Shown here: piece by piece, positions 3,472 to 12,650 of the stretch
Numbering within the stretch: the first letter of the stretch is position 1
How the letters are laid out: every line of letters begins with the position of its first letter
Source of the DNA: Candidatus Poseidoniaceae archaeon
Lineage (GTDB): Archaea; Thermoplasmatota; Poseidoniia; Poseidoniales; Poseidoniaceae
Assembly: GCA_013330015.1 (NCBI GenBank)
Contig: DUJC01000096.1
Coordinates: 1-12,650 of the forward strand
DNA: 12,650 nt
Direction: 5' to 3'
Position numbers and translations under genes: made by a program
The notes under the pieces: model-generated
What the model was told of the DNA's origin: nothing
Database searches by the model: none
The model's input: only the letters and a program-made list of their open reading frames with translations

Positions 3472-4458
3472 ATGCGAAGAGTAGCCGTAACCGACGGTAT
3501 GGCGCAAGAGGCCGTCAAGAAACTCGAAAGTGCTGGTTGCGAGGTTGTTCAGGATTTCATCGAACACGATCAACTGGTTGATGGGGCATTGGCTGATTTC
3601 GATGCAATCATTGTTCGCAGTGCAACCAAACTGACGAAAGAGATGTTGGACGCAAGTCAACCTCGGTTGAAGGTGGTTGCACGTGCAGGCGTCGGTGTCG
3701 ATAACATCGACCTTGACGCAGCCTCTCGTCTAGGCCTGCCGGTCGTCAACGCACCTCGTGCGAGTACCCAGAGCGTCGTGGAACTCACCGTTGGACATTT
3801 GCTGTCTTCGCTTCGATTCATCCCACGTGCCGATCGATTATTACGTGATGGTGTATGGGCAAAAAAGGAACTTAAAGGAACAGAACTCTACGGAAAAAGG
3901 CTCGGCCTCGTTGGTTTCGGAAGGATTGCACAAGGTGTTGCAAACGTCGCTCAGGCGTTTGGAATGGAGGTTCATTCTTACGATCCCTATCTTCCACTTG
4001 CCATCGCAAAGAAGGCAGGTGTGACGATGCACAAGAACGTCGACAATCTCTTCAAAACATGCACGCATATCTCCATTCACTGCAACTTGACTGATGAAAC
4101 ACATCATCTTGTCAATCAAAAGCGCATCAGGATGATGCCCGGCGTCGATCCGTTCAATCTCAAATGTGGCAATCATGTCGTCAACTGCGCCCGAGGAGGT
4201 ATCGTTGATGAAGATGCAGCTTTTGAAGCACTTGAATCTGGACAATTGTTGTCCTTGGCCCTTGACGTCTTCGAACACGAGCCAGTTGATTCCACATCTC
4301 CTCTTCTTCAACATCCAAATTTCCATGGTACGCCTCATATCGGTGCTGCTACCATCGAAGCACAGCGACGTGTAGGGCTTGATATCGTCGATGCCGTTCT
4401 CACTGTTTTGGATGGTGGCATGGCCGAAACCACTGTCAATCGAAGCGATCTTTCCTGA
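3472..4458 (+). CDS. serA: D-3-phosphoglycerate dehydrogenase, short form without ACT domain
   Basis: NAD-dependent enzyme that oxidises 3-phosphoglycerate to 3-phosphohydroxypyruvate, the first step of serine synthesis, in the cytoplasm. The 328 residues form a complete D-isomer-specific 2-hydroxyacid dehydrogenase. The N-terminal substrate-binding part carries RAGVGVDNID (71-80), typical of SerA. The Rossmann motif GFGRIA is at 148-153, followed by a plausible NAD-selecting acidic residue D171 after the second strand. The catalytic triad is R241 (CARGG), E270 (FEHEP) and H289 (PHIGA). Other family members (glyoxylate reductase, lactate dehydrogenase) are possible, but RAGVG and NAPRASTQSVVELT favour SerA. 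It lacks the C-terminal regulatory ACT domain of long SerA proteins, so serine feedback through ACT is not expected. A loop before the catalytic Arg (about 223-236) is roughly 9 residues longer than usual. It stands alone, divergent from the membrane protein. Confidence 0.88.
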   Translation: MRRVAVTDGMAQEAVKKLESAGCEVVQDFIEHDQLVDGALADFDAIIVRSATKLTKEMLDASQPRLKVVARAGVGVDNIDLDAASRLGLPVVNAPRASTQSVVELTVGHLLSSLRFIPRADRLLRDGVWAKKELKGTELYGKRLGLVGFGRIAQGVANVAQAFGMEVHSYDPYLPLAIAKKAGVTMHKNVDNLFKTCTHISIHCNLTDETHHLVNQKRIRMMPGVDPFNLKCGNHVVNCARGGIVDEDAAFEALESGQLLSLALDVFEHEPVDSTSPLLQHPNFHGTPHIGAATIEAQRRVGLDIVDAVLTVLDGGMAETTVNRSDLS

Positions 4459-4520
4459 CCATTTTCACTTTTCAGAAGGGGTTCGCACAACGCTTCACTA
4501 GCGTTCGTCGTTCCAACACT
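4459..4520. promoter_or_regulatory. Intergenic gap upstream of the small protein-PolB2 pair
   Basis: This 62-base gap follows the serA stop. It begins with a pyrimidine-rich stretch (CATTTTCACTTTTC, about 4460-4473) that could serve as an archaeal T-rich terminator for serA. It then holds a perfect inverted repeat (separate entry) just before the next ATG. Any promoter for the polymerase pair must be here, unless the pair is read through from serA. No obvious TATA box or ribosome binding site was found. Confidence 0.35.
4489..4505. repeat. Inverted repeat AACGCT-N5-AGCGTT before the PolB2 operon
   Basis: A perfect 6-base inverted repeat (4489-4494 and 4500-4505) with a 5-base spacer ends 15 bases before the start of the 97-aa gene. 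It could be a repressor operator or a hairpin in the leader RNA. An arm of this length occurs by chance fairly often in a gap this size, so only its position makes it notable. Confidence 0.35.
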
Positions 4521-4814
4521 ATGGGACGAACTGTACCAACTTGGCGAGGACGCGTTGAACAAGAGATCGAAATTCTCGTACCGTACCGGCGTGCACTATC
4601 GCATGAGGATCGCTGTCGTTTTGATGCGATGCTCCATGATGTTCGAATGCGTCGAGCAGCAGGCGGCATGCTTCCTGCGCACGAGGCGTGGAGGCCGATG
4701 CTCTTGTCGATGATTCTCGGCGCTCATGAACGAATTCAAGCGCTTGAACAGTGTGTTACGTCTCTTCAACAACACATTTTGTCTTTGGGTGGAGACGAGC
4801 ATGAGCAGCACTAG
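4521..4814 (+). CDS. Small conserved-looking protein coupled to PolB2
   Basis: A 97-residue basic, helical protein that I cannot assign to a named family with confidence. It opens with MGRTVPTWRGRVEQE, continues with an Arg/Asp/His-rich segment (RRALSHEDRCRFDAML, about 23-38; VRMRRAAGG about 41-49), then an amphipathic helix with heptad-like Leu/Ile spacing (about 59-90, LLSMILGAHERIQALEQ), and a short acidic tail. The last helix could form a coiled coil for dimerisation or partner binding. From memory, similar small proteins beginning MGRT.PT occur in haloarchaea; I could not check this. Its stop codon lies 14 bases inside the PolB2 frame and the PolB2 ribosome binding site lies within this gene, so the two should be translationally coupled. 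That suggests a partner or accessory subunit of the polymerase. No membrane segment, catalytic motif or clear DNA-binding fold was seen. Confidence 0.75.
   Translation: MGRTVPTWRGRVEQEIEILVPYRRALSHEDRCRFDAMLHDVRMRRAAGGMLPAHEAWRPMLLSMILGAHERIQALEQCVTSLQQHILSLGGDEHEQH
4788..4792 (+). promoter_or_regulatory. Ribosome binding site GGTGG for PolB2
   Basis: GGTGG lies inside the end of the 97-aa gene, 8 bases before the ATG at 4801. It matches the archaeal anti-16S pattern and sets the PolB2 start at 4801 rather than at the upstream in-frame ATG at 4726, which has no such site and would add 25 residues unlike any polymerase N-terminus. Confidence 0.6.
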
Positions 4815-7194
4815 TGGCTGGATTTTGGACGCCCATCTTTGCTCAGCACAACTCGAAATGCTGGTATGGATTGTGACTGAGCAAGGCTCCGTTGTTTCAT
4901 TTCGTGAGCCTTGGCATCCTACACTTCATGTCGCCGGAAGTTCATCAGATCTCGAGCACCTCGTCGAATGGTTGTCGCAGCCAGAACTCTGGATTCGATA
5001 CGGTCTGCAACGTTATGCCTTCGAGAGAAAGCGACCCGAATTGGGTTCCTTCGATACGGAACGTATGCTTGCACTTACGCTTGAATCGTGTGCTACATTA
5101 CGCGCTCTCGCCGAACACATCGATGCGCGTGGTGAGCATGTTCGATACAACCTCTATTCCGTAGATGTTCGAGCTGAACAGCAATATCTCACTTCAAAGC
5201 GATTGACCATTGGTTCACCTGTGTCTCTCGAAAACAACCACCTTTCGCTCTTGGAAAGAGACGTTCAACGACGTGACTGGCGATGTTGTCGACTTGAGGT
5301 TGTTCTCGAGGAGGTTGGTCAAGGAGAAACCCTGTGTCGCCAGCCAACACGTGTTCTCGTTACACCATGCGATACGTCTGGCAACGTCACAGGGCCACAA
5401 GCTGCTTTTTTTCTGCAGCAATCCTCATCTCTCCAACAATTGGAACAGTGGTTTCGAAAGTATGATCCGGATCTTGTGCTGTCGTTGCGTGGCAATACCG
5501 AAGGCTTTCCACATCTGTTGCGTTACGTTGAAGCCAAACATACAGCGATCTGTCTTGGACGAAACCAGACTCCTCTGAGACAGATTGGTCAAACGAGGAT
5601 TCTTTCGTCCTATGGGCAGGTGTTGCGAAGCGATCCTCAGTTCCCGCTCGAAGGTCGTATTCATATCGATCTTTCGTCAAGTTTCATGTTTCGAGAAGGG
5701 GGGCTCGATGGACTGTACGAACTTGCGCGTGTTTCTGCAACACGAATCAGTGATGCCTCAAGGAAATCTCCGGGTTCGGTCATCAGTGCGATACAATATC
5801 GAGTAGCAATGGAAGATGGTGTGCTTGTTCCGTGGAAAAAGACGCGTCCTGAAGATACCAAGTCAGCATGGGATTTGTTGCAATCTGATCGAGGAGGGCT
5901 CTACTTAGACAGCCGACCTGGTGTCTATGCCAACGTCATCGAACTCGATTTTGCAAGTCTCTTTCCAAGCATCATTGCAACACGTAACATCTCTCCTGAG
6001 ACCCTGAATTGCAGTTGTTGTCAACCGGCGAAGAACACCACGCCACTCCCTCTTCACCCGGATGAAGCCAAAAAGCGGTTTCAATTGCAACAGCAGCAAT
6101 GGAAATCAGCAAGTCTTGCTTTTCCTCAACAGTGCTCAAATGCGTTTCAGGTCCCTGAGTTGATGACGCATACATGTGGTCGCAGGCACGGTTTTCTCGG
6201 CCGAGTCGTTGCACCTCTCATCGAACGCCGTCGGCAACTCAAGCAGCAAATTGTCGTTAAGGGTGATGCAGCAGATCGTCAGCAGAACGCTCTCAAATGG
6301 CTTCTTGTCACGTGTTTTGGTTACACAGGATATCGAAACGCTCGCTTCGGTCGTATTGAAGCACATGAAGCTATATGTGCTTGGGCTCGTGAACTTCTCT
6401 TGCAGACCATCGATTGTGCCCAAGAACGTGGTTGGGAAGTGTTGCATGCCATTGTCGATTCCATCTGGATCCGTGATCGAGAGGGCCGTTCTCTCGAAGA
6501 GCAGCATCAATCGGCGATGGATCTCTCGAACCATGTGCACAAAATGACGGGCATTCCTCTCGAATACGAAGCAACGTACCGCTGCATCGCTTTCCTCCCA
6601 AGCAGGGTGCACAGCGGTGGTTCACTTACGAAGTATTGGGCATATGGCGAGAATGGAATGAAGATTCGAGGCCTTGAGTTGCGGCAACATTCGACGTGTC
6701 CTTGGGTTGCTCAACTGCAAACACGGGCGTTGGAAATGCTGGCGGAAACCGAGGATTTGGTCGATGGCATTCCAAGTTATCGTGTACAATGCCACATTCA
6801 ACGTCTTCTCCTCGACGAAGTGCAGCGTCTTGAGCACCATCAGGTGCGTGCAAAGAATTTGCTCATTGCCCAACGAATCTCTCGAAGGCCCTCTGCGAAT
6901 TCCTCACAAACCGTGGCTATGTTGGCCTATCAGCGCTCGGAGTCGCTCGGTTATCCTCTGGAATTGGCTTCAAAAGTACGTTTTGTTGTGTGCACAAAAG
7001 ATGCCATCAATCCGTTGCAACGTGTTGTTCTTGCACGGGAATGTGAACACTTGGATGGTCCACTTCGGCGCATCGATGTCGATTACTACCGTCGACTTGC
7101 TGTGCGGGCAATATGGTCGGTTCTCGCTCCGTTTGGTTGGTCGGAAGAGCAGCTGCTTGAGCCGCCAGTCGCTCGGTTGGAACAATGGATGTAA
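4801..7194 (+). CDS. Archaeal family B DNA polymerase, PolB2 group, with degraded active sites
   Basis: A 797-residue family B polymerase, normal length for archaea, with N-terminal, exonuclease-like, palm, fingers and thumb regions. Motif A is intact (D383 in DFASLFPSII). Motif B keeps K499 but reads VTCFG (503-507) where NSxYG is usual. Motif C reads HAIVDS (549-554): D553 is kept, but the position of the other catalytic Asp is I551. In the exonuclease region Exo I reads CRLEV (163-167) instead of DIE, and Exo II reads TEGFP (233-237) with Gly in place of Asp, so proofreading should be lost. Cysteines C404, C406, C407, C445 and C459 between motifs A and B could bind a metal. These changes match the archaeal PolB2 group (Sulfolobus Dpo2), which is linked to DNA damage tolerance rather than replication. 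It may be a weak or error-prone polymerase, or a scaffold. It shares an operon with the 97-aa protein and is convergent with a RecA-like ATPase. Confidence 0.9.
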   Translation: MSSTSGWILDAHLCSAQLEMLVWIVTEQGSVVSFREPWHPTLHVAGSSSDLEHLVEWLSQPELWIRYGLQRYAFERKRPELGSFDTERMLALTLESCATLRALAEHIDARGEHVRYNLYSVDVRAEQQYLTSKRLTIGSPVSLENNHLSLLERDVQRRDWRCCRLEVVLEEVGQGETLCRQPTRVLVTPCDTSGNVTGPQAAFFLQQSSSLQQLEQWFRKYDPDLVLSLRGNTEGFPHLLRYVEAKHTAICLGRNQTPLRQIGQTRILSSYGQVLRSDPQFPLEGRIHIDLSSSFMFREGGLDGLYELARVSATRISDASRKSPGSVISAIQYRVAMEDGVLVPWKKTRPEDTKSAWDLLQSDRGGLYLDSRPGVYANVIELDFASLFPSIIATRNISPETLNCSCCQPAKNTTPLPLHPDEAKKRFQLQQQQWKSASLAFPQQCSNAFQVPELMTHTCGRRHGFLGRVVAPLIERRRQLKQQIVVKGDAADRQQNALKWLLVTCFGYTGYRNARFGRIEAHEAICAWARELLLQTIDCAQERGWEVLHAIVDSIWIRDREGRSLEEQHQSAMDLSNHVHKMTGIPLEYEATYRCIAFLPSRVHSGGSLTKYWAYGENGMKIRGLELRQHSTCPWVAQLQTRALEMLAETEDLVDGIPSYRVQCHIQRLLLDEVQRLEHHQVRAKNLLIAQRISRRPSANSSQTVAMLAYQRSESLGYPLELASKVRFVVCTKDAINPLQRVVLARECEHLDGPLRRIDVDYYRRLAVRAIWSVLAPFGWSEEQLLEPPVARLEQWM

Positions 7195-7843
7195 AATGGT
7201 TCAATTGTTGTTGAGCAATTGGATGACTCGGTTCTTTCATGGTCATTTGGTAAACACCTGTGGAGCTTGTGAGTCGAAGTGTTGTTTTCTCTCGGTCGTT
7301 CCATGTTCCTTTCAATCGATGTCGAACATAAGGCCGCATCGTATGCTTGAGTTGTTGATGCAAAGGAGAGGTTGCCTTTCCATCGAGAAGAACAATTGGA
7401 CAGTTTCGGCCCACTTCTTCGAGAGAAGCCATGCAATGACGTAGAATCGAACGAGCTTCAAATCGTTTGATTTGTTCATCAAGAAACATTGCGAGCATAC
7501 CATCGACAACAATCATCGATGCCTGTGTTAATGCAACCTCATTCCGAACTCTTTGAATCAGTGCATGCAGTTGATGTAAGGTGAATCCTCTTCCAATGTA
7601 CAATCGACGTAAACCATCTTCGATAGGACAATCGAGTGAACGCATGGATGGAAAAAACCCGCTTGGGTCAAACCGATGGCCTCCATCAATCCAATGCACA
7701 GCATGCCCTCTCGAAAGAAGAATGCTCGTCCAATGTTGAGCGAGCAATCGGCCGTCTTTTCCAAAGTGCCCTGGTCCCTCGAGCAGGGTGATGCCTGTCG
7801 AAGGGATGCGCAATTCACTACGCTGTCGTTCCACTGGATGCAT
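7007..7843 (-). CDS. RecA/RadA-superfamily ATPase (RadA-paralog or ImuA-like)
   Basis: A 278-residue P-loop protein. The Walker A loop is GPGHFGKD (23-30); K29 is present but the usual Thr/Ser after it is D30. WIDGGHRFDP (51-60) matches the strand after the P-loop in RadA paralogs, where ID(G/T)..F is common. FTLHQLHALI (87-96) is another RadA-paralog-like segment. Walker B is MIVVD (110-114). It lacks the N-terminal helix-hairpin-helix domain of true RadA and is shorter than a recombinase, so a regulatory or loader role like bacterial ImuA or SulA is more likely than strand exchange. I chose the ATG at 7843 because GGTGAG lies just upstream; a TTG at 7864 would add 7 residues. The core ends near residue 216, and about 62 further residues are encoded opposite the PolB2 3' end. 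It diverges from the Y-family polymerase with a 73-base gap, which suggests co-regulation. Confidence 0.82.
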   Translation of the reverse strand: MHPVERQRSELRIPSTGITLLEGPGHFGKDGRLLAQHWTSILLSRGHAVHWIDGGHRFDPSGFFPSMRSLDCPIEDGLRRLYIGRGFTLHQLHALIQRVRNEVALTQASMIVVDGMLAMFLDEQIKRFEARSILRHCMASLEEVGRNCPIVLLDGKATSPLHQQLKHTMRPYVRHRLKGTWNDREKTTLRLTSSTGVYQMTMKEPSHPIAQQQLNHFTSIVPTERLAAQAAALPTNQTEREPTILPAQQVDGSNRHRCAEVDHPSVHIPVQEQHVATD

Positions 7844-7916
7844 TGTCTCACCAAGTATTGCCAATCACTGAAACCAAACCTCAGTGTTTTTGCAGAGGGT
7901 AATGGAAAAGTGAAGG
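7844..7916. promoter_or_regulatory. Divergent promoter region between RecA-like ATPase and Y-family polymerase
   Basis: This 73-base gap must hold the promoters of both divergent genes. On the minus strand GGTGAG (7852-7847) lies 3 bases before the ATPase ATG, a close but plausible ribosome binding site. The polymerase ATG at 7917 has no clear site. A perfect inverted repeat sits near the middle (separate entry). No convincing TATA box was seen on either strand. Confidence 0.5.
7866..7886. repeat. Inverted repeat CACTGA-N9-TCAGTG in the divergent promoter
   Basis: Perfect 6-base arms at 7866-7871 and 7881-7886 have centres 15 bases apart. The element lies near the middle of the gap between the ATPase and the Y-family polymerase. 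The geometry suits a dimeric regulator controlling both genes. Chance occurrence cannot be excluded from one copy. Confidence 0.4.
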
Positions 7917-9065
7917 ATGAATTTCAAACACTGCCGACAAGTGTATCGGTGTGTGCGTGAAGAGCGAATCATCATCCATTGCGACCTCGATGCATTTTTC
8001 GCATCGGTCGAGATTCTTCACCACGGCTTCCCTGAGGATGAACCGTTAATCATTGGATCGGATCCGATGCAAGGACGTGGCCGAGGCATTGTATCGACAT
8101 GCAACTATGCTGCAAGAGAATACGGTGTTCGGTCTGCGATGCCAATTTCTGAAGCATGGCGTCGATGTCCTGGGCACCCTTTTGGCCCTGCTCGCTTCAT
8201 TCGGGGCACTCGATCTTTGTATTCGATGGCTTCACGACGCGTCATGAAGATTCTGAGGCAAGACTCAGTCAAATTCGAACAAGCGAGCATCGATGAAGCC
8301 TATCTCGATGTTACTGAGATTGTCAAGCACGATTGGGATGAAGCGATGGCCCTTGCACGAAGACTGCAACGAACGATTCATTCAAAGGTGGGGTTAACAG
8401 CTTCTTTTGGAATCGGACCAACACGAATCATCGCGAAGATGTCCTCCGAAGTGAACAAACCAAACGGTATTCATCGAGTTTTACCCGATGAGATTTCAGA
8501 GTTTTTCGAGGCTCGATCTGTGAGAGAAGTACCAGGTATTGGTCCGAAAACTGCCAATGTTCTCGCAGAGTGGGGTGTGACAACCATGGACGAGGCGGTT
8601 GAATTGGGTGAACTGGCTCTTGCCCGAATGACATCTCGTCGATTTGCTTCTTGGTTGTTAAGGGTGGTTGAGGGTTTGACATCCAACGATGTTAGCCCCC
8701 TAAGGTCTCGACGCTCGATTGGTAAAGAGCGAACATTTTCCAGCGATCAAAGTGATCATGAGCATGTGCTCGAACTTCTTGAACAATTGACGCAGTCTGT
8801 ATTAGAAAAAGCTCGAACTGAAGGAATTGCGGGCCGCCTTGCAGAAGTCAAGATCCGATACACTGGCTTTGAAACACATACGCATGGGCGTTCGATACCC
8901 GTTGCCATGGATGATACAGATGTATTTCTTAGACAAGTCCGCAGACTGTTCGCAGAAAATGTTCACCAAGATGAAAAAATTCGGCTCATCGGTTTTCGAC
9001 TAGGGCAACTTGAAGAATTGGATTCCCGTCAAACCACGCTGGACTTTATCGATGAATCAGAGTAA
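7917..9065 (+). CDS. dinB: Y-family translesion DNA polymerase (Pol IV/Dpo4 type)
   Basis: Translesion polymerase that copies past damaged bases with low fidelity. The 382 residues cover the whole DinB/Dpo4 architecture: palm, fingers, thumb with helix-hairpin-helix, and little-finger domain. The catalytic acidic residues are all present: D23 in CDLDAFFASVE (22-32) and D126/E127 in SIDEAYLD (124-131). F28 is the steric gate that excludes ribonucleotides. NYAAREYGVRSAMP (63-76) is the fingers motif of the family, and VPGIGPKTANVL is the thumb HhH. The C-terminus ends with QTTLDFIDESE (372-382), which resembles a PCNA-binding box but is one residue shorter than the QxxLxxFF consensus. The ATG at 7917 adds about 15 residues before the conserved first strand; a GTG at 7953 is an alternative start. 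It is divergent from a RecA-like ATPase and close to PolB2, pointing to a joint damage-tolerance role. Its stop overlaps the valS stop by 9 bases. Confidence 0.95.
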   Translation: MNFKHCRQVYRCVREERIIIHCDLDAFFASVEILHHGFPEDEPLIIGSDPMQGRGRGIVSTCNYAAREYGVRSAMPISEAWRRCPGHPFGPARFIRGTRSLYSMASRRVMKILRQDSVKFEQASIDEAYLDVTEIVKHDWDEAMALARRLQRTIHSKVGLTASFGIGPTRIIAKMSSEVNKPNGIHRVLPDEISEFFEARSVREVPGIGPKTANVLAEWGVTTMDEAVELGELALARMTSRRFASWLLRVVEGLTSNDVSPLRSRRSIGKERTFSSDQSDHEHVLELLEQLTQSVLEKARTEGIAGRLAEVKIRYTGFETHTHGRSIPVAMDDTDVFLRQVRRLFAENVHQDEKIRLIGFRLGQLEELDSRQTTLDFIDESE

Positions 9066-11519
9066 TTTGTGCATCCGAGTGAGGGTATCCTTGAATCCAG
9101 TGAGGTTGTCTGGAATCACGACGCCTTCTATCTCGGCATTCAGCGATAAGCCGTTTTCTTTCTTCGTTTTCCAAACCTCACTGTTGAACGACTCAATGTC
9201 TGAAGTTTTGGAATTCAAATCCTCATCGACTGGTGGTAGATTGGGGAAGGTATCAACATCAACAGCGCTCGTTCCGTAGAGCGTCATTGAAATGTGATGA
9301 CAAAAGAAGGGACAAACTGGACTGAACGCAGCGAGGAAATCACGCAGTATGTTGTGAATGGTCCAAGCAGCATGCTGATCTCCATCGTACAACCGAGATT
9401 TTGCCATTTCAAGCCAATGTGAAGGCAAAACCCCAGTTCCGAATGTCTTGAGAGCCTGAGTAGCAGTGTAAATATCGAGATTTTCCCATGATGTTCGTAC
9501 GCTTGCCATCATGGTTGCGAACTCAGATTGAATCCAACGATCTTCAATCGGATACGGTGCAGATGGTTCCTCATCTGGACAATCGAACTGGCTAGCAAAT
9601 CGTGCGACGTTGAATAACTTCGTTAGTACACCGAAGTACTTCGATTCAATTTCTTCTGGATTGATGTGGAAATCATCTCCAACTTGAGCTTCACATGCCT
9701 TCCATAGTCGGAAACATTCGCTACCAATTTTGTTGGCTTTGAGACTGACCGAACCATCTGGTCCTCGCACCTTCCATGAACCTGTTCGTCCTCCAGCTCC
9801 ACATTCAAGAACACTATCTGCATCGATTCCATTTCCGAGCGATTTCGACATCTTTCTGCCCCACGGGTCCATGCCCAAACCATCGATCCACACATGTTTG
9901 AAACCTGGTTGCTCAAGCAAGAGCGCAGATTTGAGTAAAGTATAGTACAACCAGGTACGAACGATTTCTTTTCCTTGAGGGCGTAAAGCCGTTGGGAACG
10001 CCTTTTCGAAAACCTCTGGTTTGTTGAGATACCCGCTGACGAACAGATTGGAATTGGATGAATCCATCCATGTATCGAAGACTTTCTCTTCACCACGGAT
10101 TTGCCCCATCTGCTCTTTGAGGTCGGAATATGATCCAATGTCCTCTCTGGAATCTCGTTGCAACACTCTTGATCCTTCTGGAGGTACGTCCTTCCAAGGC
10201 TGTACATAGGTTCCTGCTGGTGGAACAATGATGTGGTCCTCGTTTTCACTATACCAAATCGGAATCTCAGTGTGATACCATCGTCTTCGTGATATTGGCC
10301 AATCGATGCTAATGTTGTCCATCCAATCCAACAAGAATTGTCGGTTACGTGGCGGGTGGAATTCAATCTGTTCAATCAAGTCGAGCATCTTGTCTTGCAT
10401 GTGTGTCTGACGAACGTACCATTCCTTCAGAAGAATGATTTCGACAGGGTTCTTCCCTCGTTCTGAAACGGGGACTTCCTGCTGTCGCTCTTCAATGGCG
10501 TCGATGTTACCTTCCATTTCCAACATCTCGATGGCTTTTGTGCGGGCATCAAGGACTGATAACCCTTCAAGAGGGCCCGAGATTGAGGTCATGCATCCGT
10601 TCAAATCGATTGCTTGGAATGGTGCAAGGCCAAGTTCTCTGAAAACTGCGACGTCGTTTTGATCACCAAACGAACAAACCATCAAAATTCCACTTCCAAA
10701 TTCGGACTTGACCGATGGGTGTGTCTGAATTTCAACGGATTGTTCGCGTCCTGATACCGGCATTGGAAGAATGGCTTTTTTCCCAACAAGATGTTGGTAA
10801 CGCTGGTCATCTGGATGGACAACAACGACGCCACATGCACAAATCAATTCCGGCCGTGTTGTTGAGATGACAAGGTCTTCACCATCTTCGGTCTTCCAAC
10901 GAACATCGACCAATTTGGTCATTCGACCAATTCGCTCTACTTCAGCATCAGCAATCGTCGTTCCTTCGACCGGGTCGTAGATGTTGGGCCTCAAGTCTTC
11001 GACGATGTCTCCTTTTTTGAAAAGTTCAATGAAGATTGATTGGGTTACGGATCGGTAATCAGGAGCGTCGGTGAGATACTCTGCTGCAAAATCGCAAGAT
11101 AAGCCTACACGAGCAGCTGTTTTTCGCATGGCTTGGGTGAAGGTCTCGATGGTTTCACGACATAAGTTGAGAAATTCCTCTCTGTCGTACGTTTTCATCT
11201 TTCGTTTCGTGTTCTTTTCGACGGTGAATTCAATGTTAATTCCATTCCGATCGACACCCCAAGGAAAGTAGACTTCCTTACCAAGCAATCGTTGAGAACG
11301 AGCCAGAACATCGATCATCGAATATTGAGCAACAGCACCAATGTGCCACGTCCCTGATGGGTATGGAGGTGGTGTGTCAATCACAAAAATTGGTTTCCCA
11401 CTCTCTGGCTTGAAACCATATCGTTGTTGATATGCGCTTTCATCTGCGTAATGTTGTTCCTGTATGCTCTTTTCGAGGTCGATTGACCATCGCTTTTCTG
11501 GAAGTCGAGGCGTCCCCAT
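9057..11519 (-). CDS. valS: Valyl-tRNA synthetase, archaeal type
   Basis: Class I aminoacyl-tRNA synthetase that charges tRNA-Val with valine; cytoplasmic and essential. The 820 residues include the HIGH-type motif HIGA (59-62, after TPPPYPSGTW), the CP1 editing domain with STTRPEL and a VVVHPDD segment, the FDTWMDSS segment, and KMSKS (556-560) followed by LGNGID. A helical anticodon-binding domain makes up the rest. The bacterial C-terminal coiled-coil arm is absent, as expected for archaea. Two oddities are seen. An extra stretch of about 25 residues (573-597, rich in Gly/Ser/Lys) interrupts the usual 'EKYGADAxRxW' segment straight after KMSKS. The CPxC zinc pair usually found before TAIADAEVE is also missing (the stretch reads NIYDPVEGTTIADAEVE). 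I chose the ATG at 11519 because GGTG lies 6 bases upstream; the frame extends to 11675, but that extension is low in family character and would cross the next promoter. Assignment over IleS or LeuS rests on the editing and TWMDSS segments. Confidence 0.93.
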   Translation of the reverse strand: MGTPRLPEKRWSIDLEKSIQEQHYADESAYQQRYGFKPESGKPIFVIDTPPPYPSGTWHIGAVAQYSMIDVLARSQRLLGKEVYFPWGVDRNGINIEFTVEKNTKRKMKTYDREEFLNLCRETIETFTQAMRKTAARVGLSCDFAAEYLTDAPDYRSVTQSIFIELFKKGDIVEDLRPNIYDPVEGTTIADAEVERIGRMTKLVDVRWKTEDGEDLVISTTRPELICACGVVVVHPDDQRYQHLVGKKAILPMPVSGREQSVEIQTHPSVKSEFGSGILMVCSFGDQNDVAVFRELGLAPFQAIDLNGCMTSISGPLEGLSVLDARTKAIEMLEMEGNIDAIEERQQEVPVSERGKNPVEIILLKEWYVRQTHMQDKMLDLIEQIEFHPPRNRQFLLDWMDNISIDWPISRRRWYHTEIPIWYSENEDHIIVPPAGTYVQPWKDVPPEGSRVLQRDSREDIGSYSDLKEQMGQIRGEEKVFDTWMDSSNSNLFVSGYLNKPEVFEKAFPTALRPQGKEIVRTWLYYTLLKSALLLEQPGFKHVWIDGLGMDPWGRKMSKSLGNGIDADSVLECGAGGRTGSWKVRGPDGSVSLKANKIGSECFRLWKACEAQVGDDFHINPEEIESKYFGVLTKLFNVARFASQFDCPDEEPSAPYPIEDRWIQSEFATMMASVRTSWENLDIYTATQALKTFGTGVLPSHWLEMAKSRLYDGDQHAAWTIHNILRDFLAAFSPVCPFFCHHISMTLYGTSAVDVDTFPNLPPVDEDLNSKTSDIESFNSEVWKTKKENGLSLNAEIEGVVIPDNLTGFKDTLTRMHKLL

Positions 11520-11525
11520 GCTTAA

Positions 11526-11529
11526 CACC
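11526..11529 (-). promoter_or_regulatory. Ribosome binding site GGTG for valS
   Basis: On the minus strand GGTG lies 6 bases before the ATG at 11519. It supports that start over upstream in-frame codons. Confidence 0.5.
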
Positions 11530-11536
11530 GGCCCTG

Positions 11537-11567
11537 CCCCCTGTGAACGGGGGGGTCCGATTGACCC
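11537..11567. repeat. Paired short hairpins in the valS leader
   Basis: CCCCC (11537-11541) can pair with the G7 run (11549-11555) across a 7-base loop. GGGTC (11553-11557) can pair with GACCC (11563-11567) across a 5-base loop. The two hairpins share bases 11553-11555, so they are partly exclusive alternatives. They lie 18-48 bases upstream of the valS ATG. A regulatory function is speculative. Confidence 0.3.
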
Positions 11568-11652
11568 TGTGTGCGTTTCTTTTTCAACGGTTCCCTCACA
11601 ATGAGACAGCAATACTTTCAATGAAAGACCCGAGGGGCTGTTGGGTAGCCGT

Positions 11653-12650
11653 ATGCCGGATGACGCCGAAGACAAAACATCCTCTCATGATGAAGAGGAC
11701 GTTGGACGTATTCAGGCGATTGCTGACTACAGCCGAGAGCGTGTACGAGTGGCCTCGGTTGACATCTCTGCCCGAGTGCGCGATTTTGATGCGAAAAAGG
11801 CAGTTGACGCAGTTCTCGAAGCTCCGAAGAGGTTGAAACGAGAATGGCAGAAAACCGGAGCAACGGGTGTTATCACACGTTTTCCTATTGCAACCGTTGC
11901 CTTGTTTTTGATGATCACATTGTATTTTGTCACAACGTCAGGATTCCTTGACGACACGCAGTTTGATGATGATCCAAACGAACCTGCGCTCAATGTCAAT
12001 GGTGATATGGAAGTATACCTCCCAGATGGGAGTGAGGTCAAGGAACTTATTGAAATGGTTGAAGCGGATTGGACAACCAACGTTATGGTCATTTACATAG
12101 AATCGGATAAAAACAACATCACTGACCAAAGAATTTTACAAGAAATCAGCTATGTTGAAAAAAGCATCAATCCTTATGTTTCTGACAACGAAAGCGATGA
12201 TGTCATTTACATTCTTTCAATTTCAACGGTACTGAAGGAAATCAATTCAAGTTTGCCACGTGTACGTGATGCTTTCATTACCGAATTGGGTCGTCAATGC
12301 CCCTCCTTCCAAGAGGTTTGTGAGAATTTCGCAGCAAGTGTCAACACGGCACTCTCTGCAGGAGATGACCAATTTGCTGGTGGTTACGAAATTCCTTCCC
12401 AGACAACCATCGATTTGATCATCGGTGAAATGTACGAAACCGACGGGTCACCAACGCCAGGTCTCGATAAACTCGCTCGAAATACCAATGCATGCAGCGG
12501 CCAACCGAACGATGAAGATACCGATGACAACGGATGTTTTGATGGAGAGGATTTGAAACTTGACCGGGCCATCATGGCGGTTGCAGTCGTCGACTCCATC
12601 GAAGCCAAAGATATCATCGAAGCAACACAACAACGACTTGACAACATCTC
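11653..12650 (+). CDS. RND/MMPL-like membrane protein, N-terminal part
   Basis: The frame is open from the ATG at 11653 to the window end (332 codons visible). A charged cytoplasmic N-terminus of about 74 residues is followed by one strong membrane helix (about 75-98, FPIATVALFLMITLYFVTT), then a large acidic extracellular domain. One helix followed by a large outer domain, with the pattern DMEVYLPDGSEVKELIEMVE (119-138) and a later strand VMVIYIESD, is what RND-superfamily/MMPL exporters show at their N-terminus. In such proteins the remaining helices would follow beyond the window. A DxDxDG-like acidic calcium-loop candidate with a Cys lies at about 287-300 (DEDTDDNGCFDGED), and other Cys residues in the outer domain could form disulfides. 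The substrate is unknown. An in-frame TTG four codons upstream is an alternative start; no clear ribosome binding site was seen. The family call is moderate because the diagnostic later helices are not visible. Confidence 0.65.
   Translation, partial: MPDDAEDKTSSHDEEDVGRIQAIADYSRERVRVASVDISARVRDFDAKKAVDAVLEAPKRLKREWQKTGATGVITRFPIATVALFLMITLYFVTTSGFLDDTQFDDDPNEPALNVNGDMEVYLPDGSEVKELIEMVEADWTTNVMVIYIESDKNNITDQRILQEISYVEKSINPYVSDNESDDVIYILSISTVLKEINSSLPRVRDAFITELGRQCPSFQEVCENFAASVNTALSAGDDQFAGGYEIPSQTTIDLIIGEMYETDGSPTPGLDKLARNTNACSGQPNDEDTDDNGCFDGEDLKLDRAIMAVAVVDSIEAKDIIEATQQRLDNI

Follow-up and report, generated by a model that had tools for sequence, protein, structure and literature searches.

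A probable PolB2 mutasome cassette between serA and dinB in Marine Group II archaea and the tandem box upstream of it

Four adjacent genes in a 12,650-nt stretch of contig DUJC01000096.1 (Candidatus Poseidoniaceae archaeon; the whole stretch is called the window below) encode a 97-aa protein, a family B DNA polymerase (PolB2), a RecA-like protein and a Y-family DNA polymerase (DinB). Do they make up one mutagenic complex, and what controls them? A sequence-only reading had taken the four as one block encoding an archaeal mutasome. The four genes are indeed adjacent but not co-directional, the RecA-like gene lying on the minus strand in convergent orientation. We propose, with a probability of about 0.8, that a PolB2 mutasome cassette of three genes lies between serA and dinB, that DinB is separate, and that a short box switches both transcription units of the cassette plus other small genes, most likely upon DNA damage. 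The mutasome claim itself is right but not new, since the system is already described (PMC11791011, PMC4104785). New to us are the convergent architecture of the cassette and its box, neither of which was found in the open-licence literature, which misses most subscription papers.

Three linked genes with the features of the PolB2 mutasome

The published PolB2 mutasome consists of PolB2, its partner PPB2 (arCOG07300) and iRadA, an inactive RadA/Rad51 homologue (Timinskas et al. 2025, PMC11791011); the operon association of PolB2 was reported by Makarova et al. (2014, PMC4104785), who themselves refer to 2013. Judged by sequence, the first three proteins of the block are these parts. The 97-aa helical protein (positions 4521–4814, plus strand) is of the arCOG07300 type, and its N-terminus MGRTVPTWR carries the same MGRT arm as published PPB2, with Arg3 and Arg9 (PMC11791011). 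Throughout the Poseidoniales (Marine Group II; hereafter the class, with families labelled f1, f2 and f3 and genera g5, g9 and so on), all 115 sequences share M1, G2, R3, W8 and R9, and position 4 is T in 85 and S in 30. The translesion polymerase PolB2 (4801–7194, plus strand) matches the Pfam profile DNA_pol_B (E 1.2e-27). Its ATG at 4801 falls inside the 3′ end of the PPB2 gene and the pair is coupled on the plus strand, as had been noticed from the sequence. The DR motif at 363–364 is also conserved: R364 is present in 117/117 aligned sequences and D363 in 115, the remaining two being unreadable.

The iRadA gene (7007–7843, minus strand) converges on PolB2 with a 188-nt tail-to-tail overlap. 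Its stop lies at 7007; a TTG start at 7864 is open, and the ATG at 7843 is likelier, favoured by the many nearest homologues of 278 aa. The Pfam match to Rad51 is marginal (E 0.079). In the predicted structure (mean pLDDT 69; residues 16–211 good, 212–285 poor) the core resembles RadA, Rad51 and XRCC2 (Foldseek best E 5.9e-9, others about 1e-8). As in iRadA of the PolB2 mutasome, a RadA/Rad51 fold thus comes without the N-terminal domain or an ATPase site: the P-loop reads GPGxFGK[D/E] in the alignment rows shown and lacks the catalytic Thr/Ser. Because this P-loop ends in Lys-Asp or Lys-Glu, iRadA should not hydrolyse ATP; what had been called a RecA-superfamily ATPase would keep the fold but not the function. 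The C-terminal region contains a QxxLxxFTSxD-like stretch (T225 invariant in 47 sequences) resembling the clamp motif QxxLxxFF minus its second aromatic. The tail behind the overlap (7007–7200) varies, the overlap spanning 26 to 188 nt within the genus of the window, and many homologues stop about 50 residues earlier, shortly past the clamp-motif-like stretch.

We surveyed the gene neighbourhood over the class. At E 0.001 a PolB2 search matched 250 of 339 genomes; many of these matches are weak and probably represent different polymerases of family B. The survey comprised the 120 strong-match loci and the window, that is 121 loci in 120 genomes (86 in f1, 35 in f2). Five further genomes with a strong PolB2 match (G027, G093, G134, G137 and G179) lie outside it. 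The counts include many related genomes and do not represent independent events. PPB2 stood upstream on the same strand in 116/121 loci, and 118/121 had iRadA downstream, encoded by the opposite strand; all eight missing cases fall at contig ends, and the trio is complete wherever the contig extends. The three genes are a conserved linked set and very probably encode the mutasome. Orientation was equally constant, iRadA being convergent in 118/118 loci, with a tail-to-tail overlap of 4 to 219 nt in 104 of the 112 measured (omitting six loci in which genes are split or an insertion separates PolB2 from iRadA). In four haloarchaeal plasmid loci, 29–31% identical, the genes run co-directionally in the order iRadA-PPB2-PolB2. 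Convergent iRadA is a feature of this class, and since iRadA lies on the opposite strand, the cassette forms two transcription units.

The cassette does not always occupy the same site. In a PolB2 tree (FastTree, 117 loci and four halophile outgroups; the remaining four of the 121 were aligned over less than 600 residues and left out), cassettes located between SerA and DinB form successive basal branches of f1 (support of the f1 node 0.79). A nested clade of 23 sequences at other sites (support 1.0) includes members of g5 and g9, genera which otherwise use the SerA–DinB site, and a single g7 sequence, also at another site, stands apart with weak support (0.62). The likeliest reading is that the cassette relocated once or twice, with transfer between genera.

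DinB as a separable neighbour

DinB (7917–9065, plus strand) lies outside the cassette. It matches the Pfam profile IMS (E 9.4e-38), and D23, D126 and E127 are unchanged in 57/57 class sequences, which bears out the earlier statement that this Y-family polymerase keeps its catalytic residues. Its start is uncertain: the frame from ATG 7917 meets a stop at codon 10 in relatives (L116, L118, L145; by eye), and GTG 7953 is one candidate start. To the left of the cassette, a SerA-like dehydrogenase gene (3472–4458, plus strand) ends 62 nt before PPB2 and borders the insertion site. To the right, a class I tRNA synthetase gene (9057–11675, minus strand; Pfam tRNA-synt_1, ValRS-type by our reading) closes the SerA-DinB-ValRS block. 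The window as a whole, from a 1.3-Mb genome that is 57% complete, thus reads subtilase-like, membrane protein (minus), SerA (plus), PPB2 (plus), PolB2 (plus), iRadA (minus), DinB (plus) and ValRS (minus), after which a further long open reading frame (ORF) begins on the plus strand.

DinB adjoined the trio in 58/121 PolB2 loci, every one of them in f1. As far as their contigs extend, these loci have SerA ahead of the cassette and ValRS behind DinB. In 50 loci with enough sequence no DinB was near the trio. Conversely, we examined 40 DinB loci without the cassette (39 genomes that have no PolB2 or carry it at another site, chosen from 175 genomes with a match, none of f3). SerA was upstream of DinB in 40/40, ValRS was present in 39/40 (in L162 none was seen though the contig continues) and all four markers in 38/40. 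The SerA–DinB gap was mostly 57–315 nt, about 670–860 nt in others and up to 1580 nt. Among the 35 f2 genomes with a surveyed PolB2 locus, which are incomplete drafts, no DinB match was obtained at E 1e-20; g19 is the only f2 genus with DinB matches, and it has no strong PolB2 match. DinB is therefore separable from the trio, whose own three genes are linked class-wide and in the four haloarchaeal loci.

Some cassette-free sites were unusual. In L187 and L188 the gap measured about 1.5 kb and held two unrelated ORFs. That of L187 (G184, a genome without a strong PolB2 match) contains two boxes of the kind described below and a degraded PPB2 (MGRTVPTWRGHIED...) 66 nt after a 15.6-bit box, which we read as the putative scar of a lost cassette; L188 keeps the boxes and no recognisable PPB2. 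In L170–L177 (f1g5, no PolB2) the gap is 165–315 nt, the DinB frame is open over a longer stretch and several loci show a weak box-like stretch of up to 9.5 bits near the gap start. DinB may there have joined the box genes.

Two alternatives concern the roles of the polymerases. In a four-subunit mutasome, DinB would insert and PolB2 extend within one complex with PPB2 and iRadA. Adjacency in 58 loci of four genera, where PolB2 outside the genus of the window is only about 41–56% identical to ours, speaks for it, as does the start of dinB beside the divergent iRadA promoter at occupied sites; an inserter-extender partnership has moreover been posed as an open question (PMC8764526). We consider this arrangement very unlikely. 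Unrelated genes (SerA, Mem, ValRS) hold the same place at the DinB site, and the order SerA–DinB persists without the trio, across gaps that in some loci contain other ORFs. Because DinB follows SerA in the 40 cassette-free loci and the 35 f2 PolB2 genomes, incomplete drafts, show no DinB match at E 1e-20, a DinB subunit is unnecessary and the adjacency is synteny. With no box at ≥12 bits upstream of DinB in any of the 40 cassette-free loci as well, DinB as a fourth subunit was rejected. PolB2, for its part, could be a dead relic kept purely as a scaffold: motif C reads I551-V552-D553 in 117/117 aligned sequences, the window included, with Ile replacing the first Asp. Yet the same type of substitution (Ile-Ile-Asp) occurs in Sulfolobus Dpo2 (PMC11791011, PMC8764526), which is active despite it (PMC8764526), and the motif A Asp (in DFASLFPS, intact), the second motif C Asp and Lys499 are invariant over these 117 divergent sequences, as selection predicts. 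A relic is highly improbable. The proposed swap of roles relative to ImuA-ImuB-DnaE2 is not supported either: in the PolB2 mutasome the catalytic subunit is PolB2 itself.

With so few events, the landing of the cassette beside a translesion gene may have been chance. The case carries a caution: a plausible partner stood next door, yet its position ceased to be informative when cassette-free versions of the site were examined.

A tandem box upstream of PPB2, iRadA and further small genes

The promoter box ACCATTTTCACTTTTCAG (4458–4475, plus strand) lies 63 nt before the PPB2 ATG and reads as tandem ATTTTC-ACTTTT, with 13 columns invariant in 17 same-genus loci. In the genus alignment CCATTTTCACTTT is invariant upstream of PPB2, and a block that matches it stands in the same orientation before iRadA; in the window this block is the weaker copy TCATCCTTCACTTTTCCA (7903–7920, minus strand, 15.2 bits) between iRadA and DinB. 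Class-wide, the consensus TTCACTTTCACTTTCA is an oriented tandem of ACTTTC with a period of 6 and begins about 60–83 nt before the PPB2 ATG where clear (about 65 nt). A palindrome upstream of PPB2, AACGCTtcactAGCGTT, was also considered as an operator and rejected, as it is not conserved in the genus alignment.

The box is specific. Over the 1.45 Mb of loci scanned, a matrix derived from the very PPB2 and iRadA upstreams that it recovers gave 108 matches at ≥16 bits: 71 before PPB2, 30 before iRadA and 7 elsewhere. None of the 101 matches at PPB2 and iRadA was reversed, although near these genes the reversed matrix is partly invalid as a control because of the near-symmetry of the repeat; away from them 7 matches stood against 8 for the reversed matrix, that is, there was no enrichment elsewhere in the fetched loci. 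With a second matrix, built from PPB2 upstreams only, control genes gave no match at ≥12 bits (SerA 0/93, ValRS 0/84, Mem 0/91 and cassette-free DinB 0/40, altogether 0/308), these controls being four families of one locus and not random promoters. The stretches scored were 150 nt for controls, 110 nt for tested genes and about 240 nt for the nine-genus loci mentioned below, and the best start was taken if several were possible; 6 of the 121 loci yielded no PPB2 upstream.

Pattern searches in 20 and in 16 genomes led to further box genes with the same spacing. With a composite pattern (box, N6, GGG) in 16 genomes, all 7 exact matches preceded one of two genes, p58 or the propeller gene; allowing at most one mismatch gave 64 matches vs 13 for the reversed control, and many of the 57 one-mismatch matches sit at no recognisable gene start. 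For the simple pattern, a reversed control gave about as many matches but is invalid, since the repeat is almost unchanged when read in reverse. The matrix built from PPB2 upstreams only scored ≥12 bits in 28/28 propeller and 25/25 p58 upstreams. This first set consisted of the 30 best matches for each gene, with no recognised start in 2/30 and 5/30, respectively; its p58 loci were all of f1g5 and its propeller loci of f1g9 or f1g5. The distance from box to ATG was 64–68 nt, except for two p58 starts at 89. Among 20 further chosen loci from nine genera, 18 reached ≥12 bits and the other two 9.8 and 9.7, with the ATG 57–68 nt beyond the box in 19/20. One of these 20 is the propeller gene from the genome of the window itself (L360), whose box scores 23.5 bits and lies at 66 nt; that genome, 57% complete, gave no p58 match. 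Over the 339 class genomes, p58 was found in 130 and the propeller gene in 160, PolB2 present or not.

p58 is a 58-aa protein (LDLMCWTxAAPLxR...RISRLLxxIxxAHxDLLS) without a Pfam match, whose box lies about 65 nt upstream. Its gene adjoins a replication factor C (RFC) small-subunit gene in f1g5 (L199 in G115, L215 in G108, L198 in G111 and L212 in G056), and an 83-aa relative in f2g19 (L207, G279) stands beside such a gene in convergent orientation; the RFC neighbours were named by Pfam for L199 and L207. The propeller gene (187–205 aa; L196, L193, L219, L221, L232, L243 and, in the genome of the window, L360) stands downstream of a TFIIB gene, from which a single small gene separates it in some loci; a metallo-beta-lactamase-fold gene in convergent orientation comes next (Pfam, L196). 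The product of the propeller gene is predicted to be a propeller of 16 strands (pLDDT 88) whose length and fold are close to those of the designed four-bladed Ika4; a precomputed Pfam assignment to PF25171 exists for 10 of 39 homologues. A third box gene of 91–97 aa (YRKRPEPxRVVxLAxLxRT...ISPSSWAGL) was found in four f2 genomes (L208–L211; G298, G307, G311 and G328). By eye, it is near IMP dehydrogenase-like and prenyltransferase-like genes in L209 and L210.

The repeat unit recalls a known element. The ups promoters of Sulfolobus acidocaldarius depend for their activity on ACTTTC/ANTTTC upstream of the core promoter, and Orc1-2 of S. islandicus binds ANTTTC (PMC5817253, PMC9738581); Orc1-2 of Sulfolobus also binds its own promoter. 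Applying the published criterion of an oriented hexamer between −80 and −30 of the start codon, we found forward ANTTTC at 91/115 PPB2 (reverse: 4), 26/28 propeller and 25/25 p58 genes vs 12/308 controls, 7 of them DinB; iRadA was omitted from this count, its start being uncertain. Two Orc1/Cdc6 genes were above the cut-off in 21/22 genomes and one in G016. Autoregulation of Orc1/Cdc6 by the box was considered and not found upstream of the second paralogue in 20/20 genomes. By eye, another recurring element (TTCAAGAACGGTTGGC / TTTCAAACACCxTTGGCA) precedes the second Orc1/Cdc6 gene in L264–L283 and DinB in many cassette-free loci, possibly an ordinary promoter of the class.

Several observations weigh against a box that controls the cassette as a damage element. 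The p58 and propeller families were discovered via the box, so their counts are not blind. At iRadA the box is patchier: 31/116 upstreams reach ≥12 bits and 52 reach ≥8 with the PPB2-trained matrix, and with a joint matrix none reaches ≥8 bits in f1g6, f2g12, f2g13, f2g16 and f2g17, 1/5 does in f2g22 and 10/27 in f1g9. PPB2 itself has a box of ≥8 bits in only 1/8 f1g6 loci and 0/1 of f2g12, and the iRadA copy of the window carries ACTTTT and not an exact ANTTTC. The second Orc1/Cdc6 gene shows no box in 20/20 genomes (best −1.8 bits, starts guessed) and a single ANTTTC in 2/20. Cassette-free DinB genes, used as controls, have forward ANTTTC in 7/40 vs 5/268 for the other controls, so that some dinB genes may carry a weak ANTTTC site. 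By eye, finally, the box was not seen in the four haloarchaeal PolB2 loci (L284–L287). Repeated GGAAAC-like motifs upstream of these plasmid iRadA-PPB2-PolB2 operons, also noted by eye, are possibly a separate element.

The box could instead be a promoter element specialised for something other than damage, such as cell-cycle or growth-phase control, its likeness to ANTTTC being coincidental. ANTTTC is of low information, with five fixed bases only; p58 beside the RFC small-subunit gene and the propeller gene behind TFIIB could indicate replication or transcription control; and both genes occur in genomes without PolB2, points to which the boxless second Orc1/Cdc6 gene adds. However, the repeat unit fits ANTTTC at all five fixed positions, with the same orientation and the same −80 to −30 range as in Sulfolobus, and the box precedes a PolB2 operon whose Sulfolobus counterpart rises 21–26 fold with the damaging agent NQO (PMC10470591). 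We regard a role unrelated to damage as a serious contender, but less likely than not. That the box is the same damage-response element as the Sulfolobales ANTTTC/Orc1-2 site we put forward tentatively, at somewhat under even odds. It would then be a domain-wide archaeal counterpart of the SOS box, reaching mesophilic surface-ocean archaea, where it would drive at least two small genes along with a mutasome that is transcribed from a pair of opposing promoters. By analogy the box would work like the Sulfolobales element; since neither the second Orc1/Cdc6 gene nor the halophile loci have it, and a hexamer is a short sequence, we state the likeness and withhold membership of that regulon.

Proposed working and comparison with known systems

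We infer that the three cassette proteins assemble as in the published models, in which a PPB2 trimer would place one MGRT arm in the cleft between PolB2 and iRadA, and iRadA would dock on PolB2 as one RadA subunit does on another. PolB2 would extend primer ends past lesions, and DinB, encoded by a separate chromosomal gene and not a subunit, might insert opposite lesions before PolB2 extends. The tandem ACTTTC box, about 65 nt before the ATG, would turn on the PPB2-PolB2 and iRadA units and at least two other small genes. DNA damage is the most likely trigger, and by the Sulfolobus precedent the regulator could be a protein of the Orc1-2 kind.

Through the box, the damage response of marine archaea that are abundant, sunlit and mostly uncultured becomes accessible to testing, and a few more genes come into view as possible associates of the PolB2 mutasome. 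If it is the Sulfolobales element, one old control circuit would govern damage-induced mutagenesis in archaea, and p58 by rfcS, the four-bladed-propeller-like protein behind tfb and the 91–97-aa protein of f2 would be new damage-response factors.

Compared with the published PolB2 mutasome, the cassette has the same three proteins, MGRT arm, D(K/R) motif, altered DxD, inactive P-loop and tight linkage. It differs in that iRadA is convergent and usually overlaps the 3′ end of PolB2, with two promoters instead of one operon: the source paper gives the same orientation of the three genes for "most cases", as usual and not essential, and here the orientation is opposite in 118/118. A term search of the main text of that paper (PMC11791011) gave no mention of Poseidoniales, Marine Group, Thermoplasmata or Euryarchaeota, and none of the main-text passages matched names DinB as a PolB2 neighbour.

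The damage-response element (DDRE) of the Sulfolobales is likewise an oriented, non-palindromic hexamer (ACTTTC in ups promoters) 30–80 nt before the start codon, and PolB2 genes are among the damage-induced genes there (PMC10470591); the tandem repeat of period 6, the small gene set and the second Orc1/Cdc6 gene without a box set the class apart. With bacterial ImuA-ImuB-DnaE2 the cassette shares a RecA-family protein and an error-prone polymerase. That polymerase is of family B and not, like DnaE2, of family C, there is no adaptor like the inactive Y-family ImuB, and the Y-family gene, its catalytic residues retained, is a mere neighbour. The Pol V mutasome (UmuC, UmuD′2, RecA) would, by the published models, be alike in that a small subunit has its N-terminal arm close to the active site and a RecA-family subunit is docked; in the archaeal cassette, however, the catalytic subunit is of family B, the small subunit is a different one and the RecA homologue is inactive.

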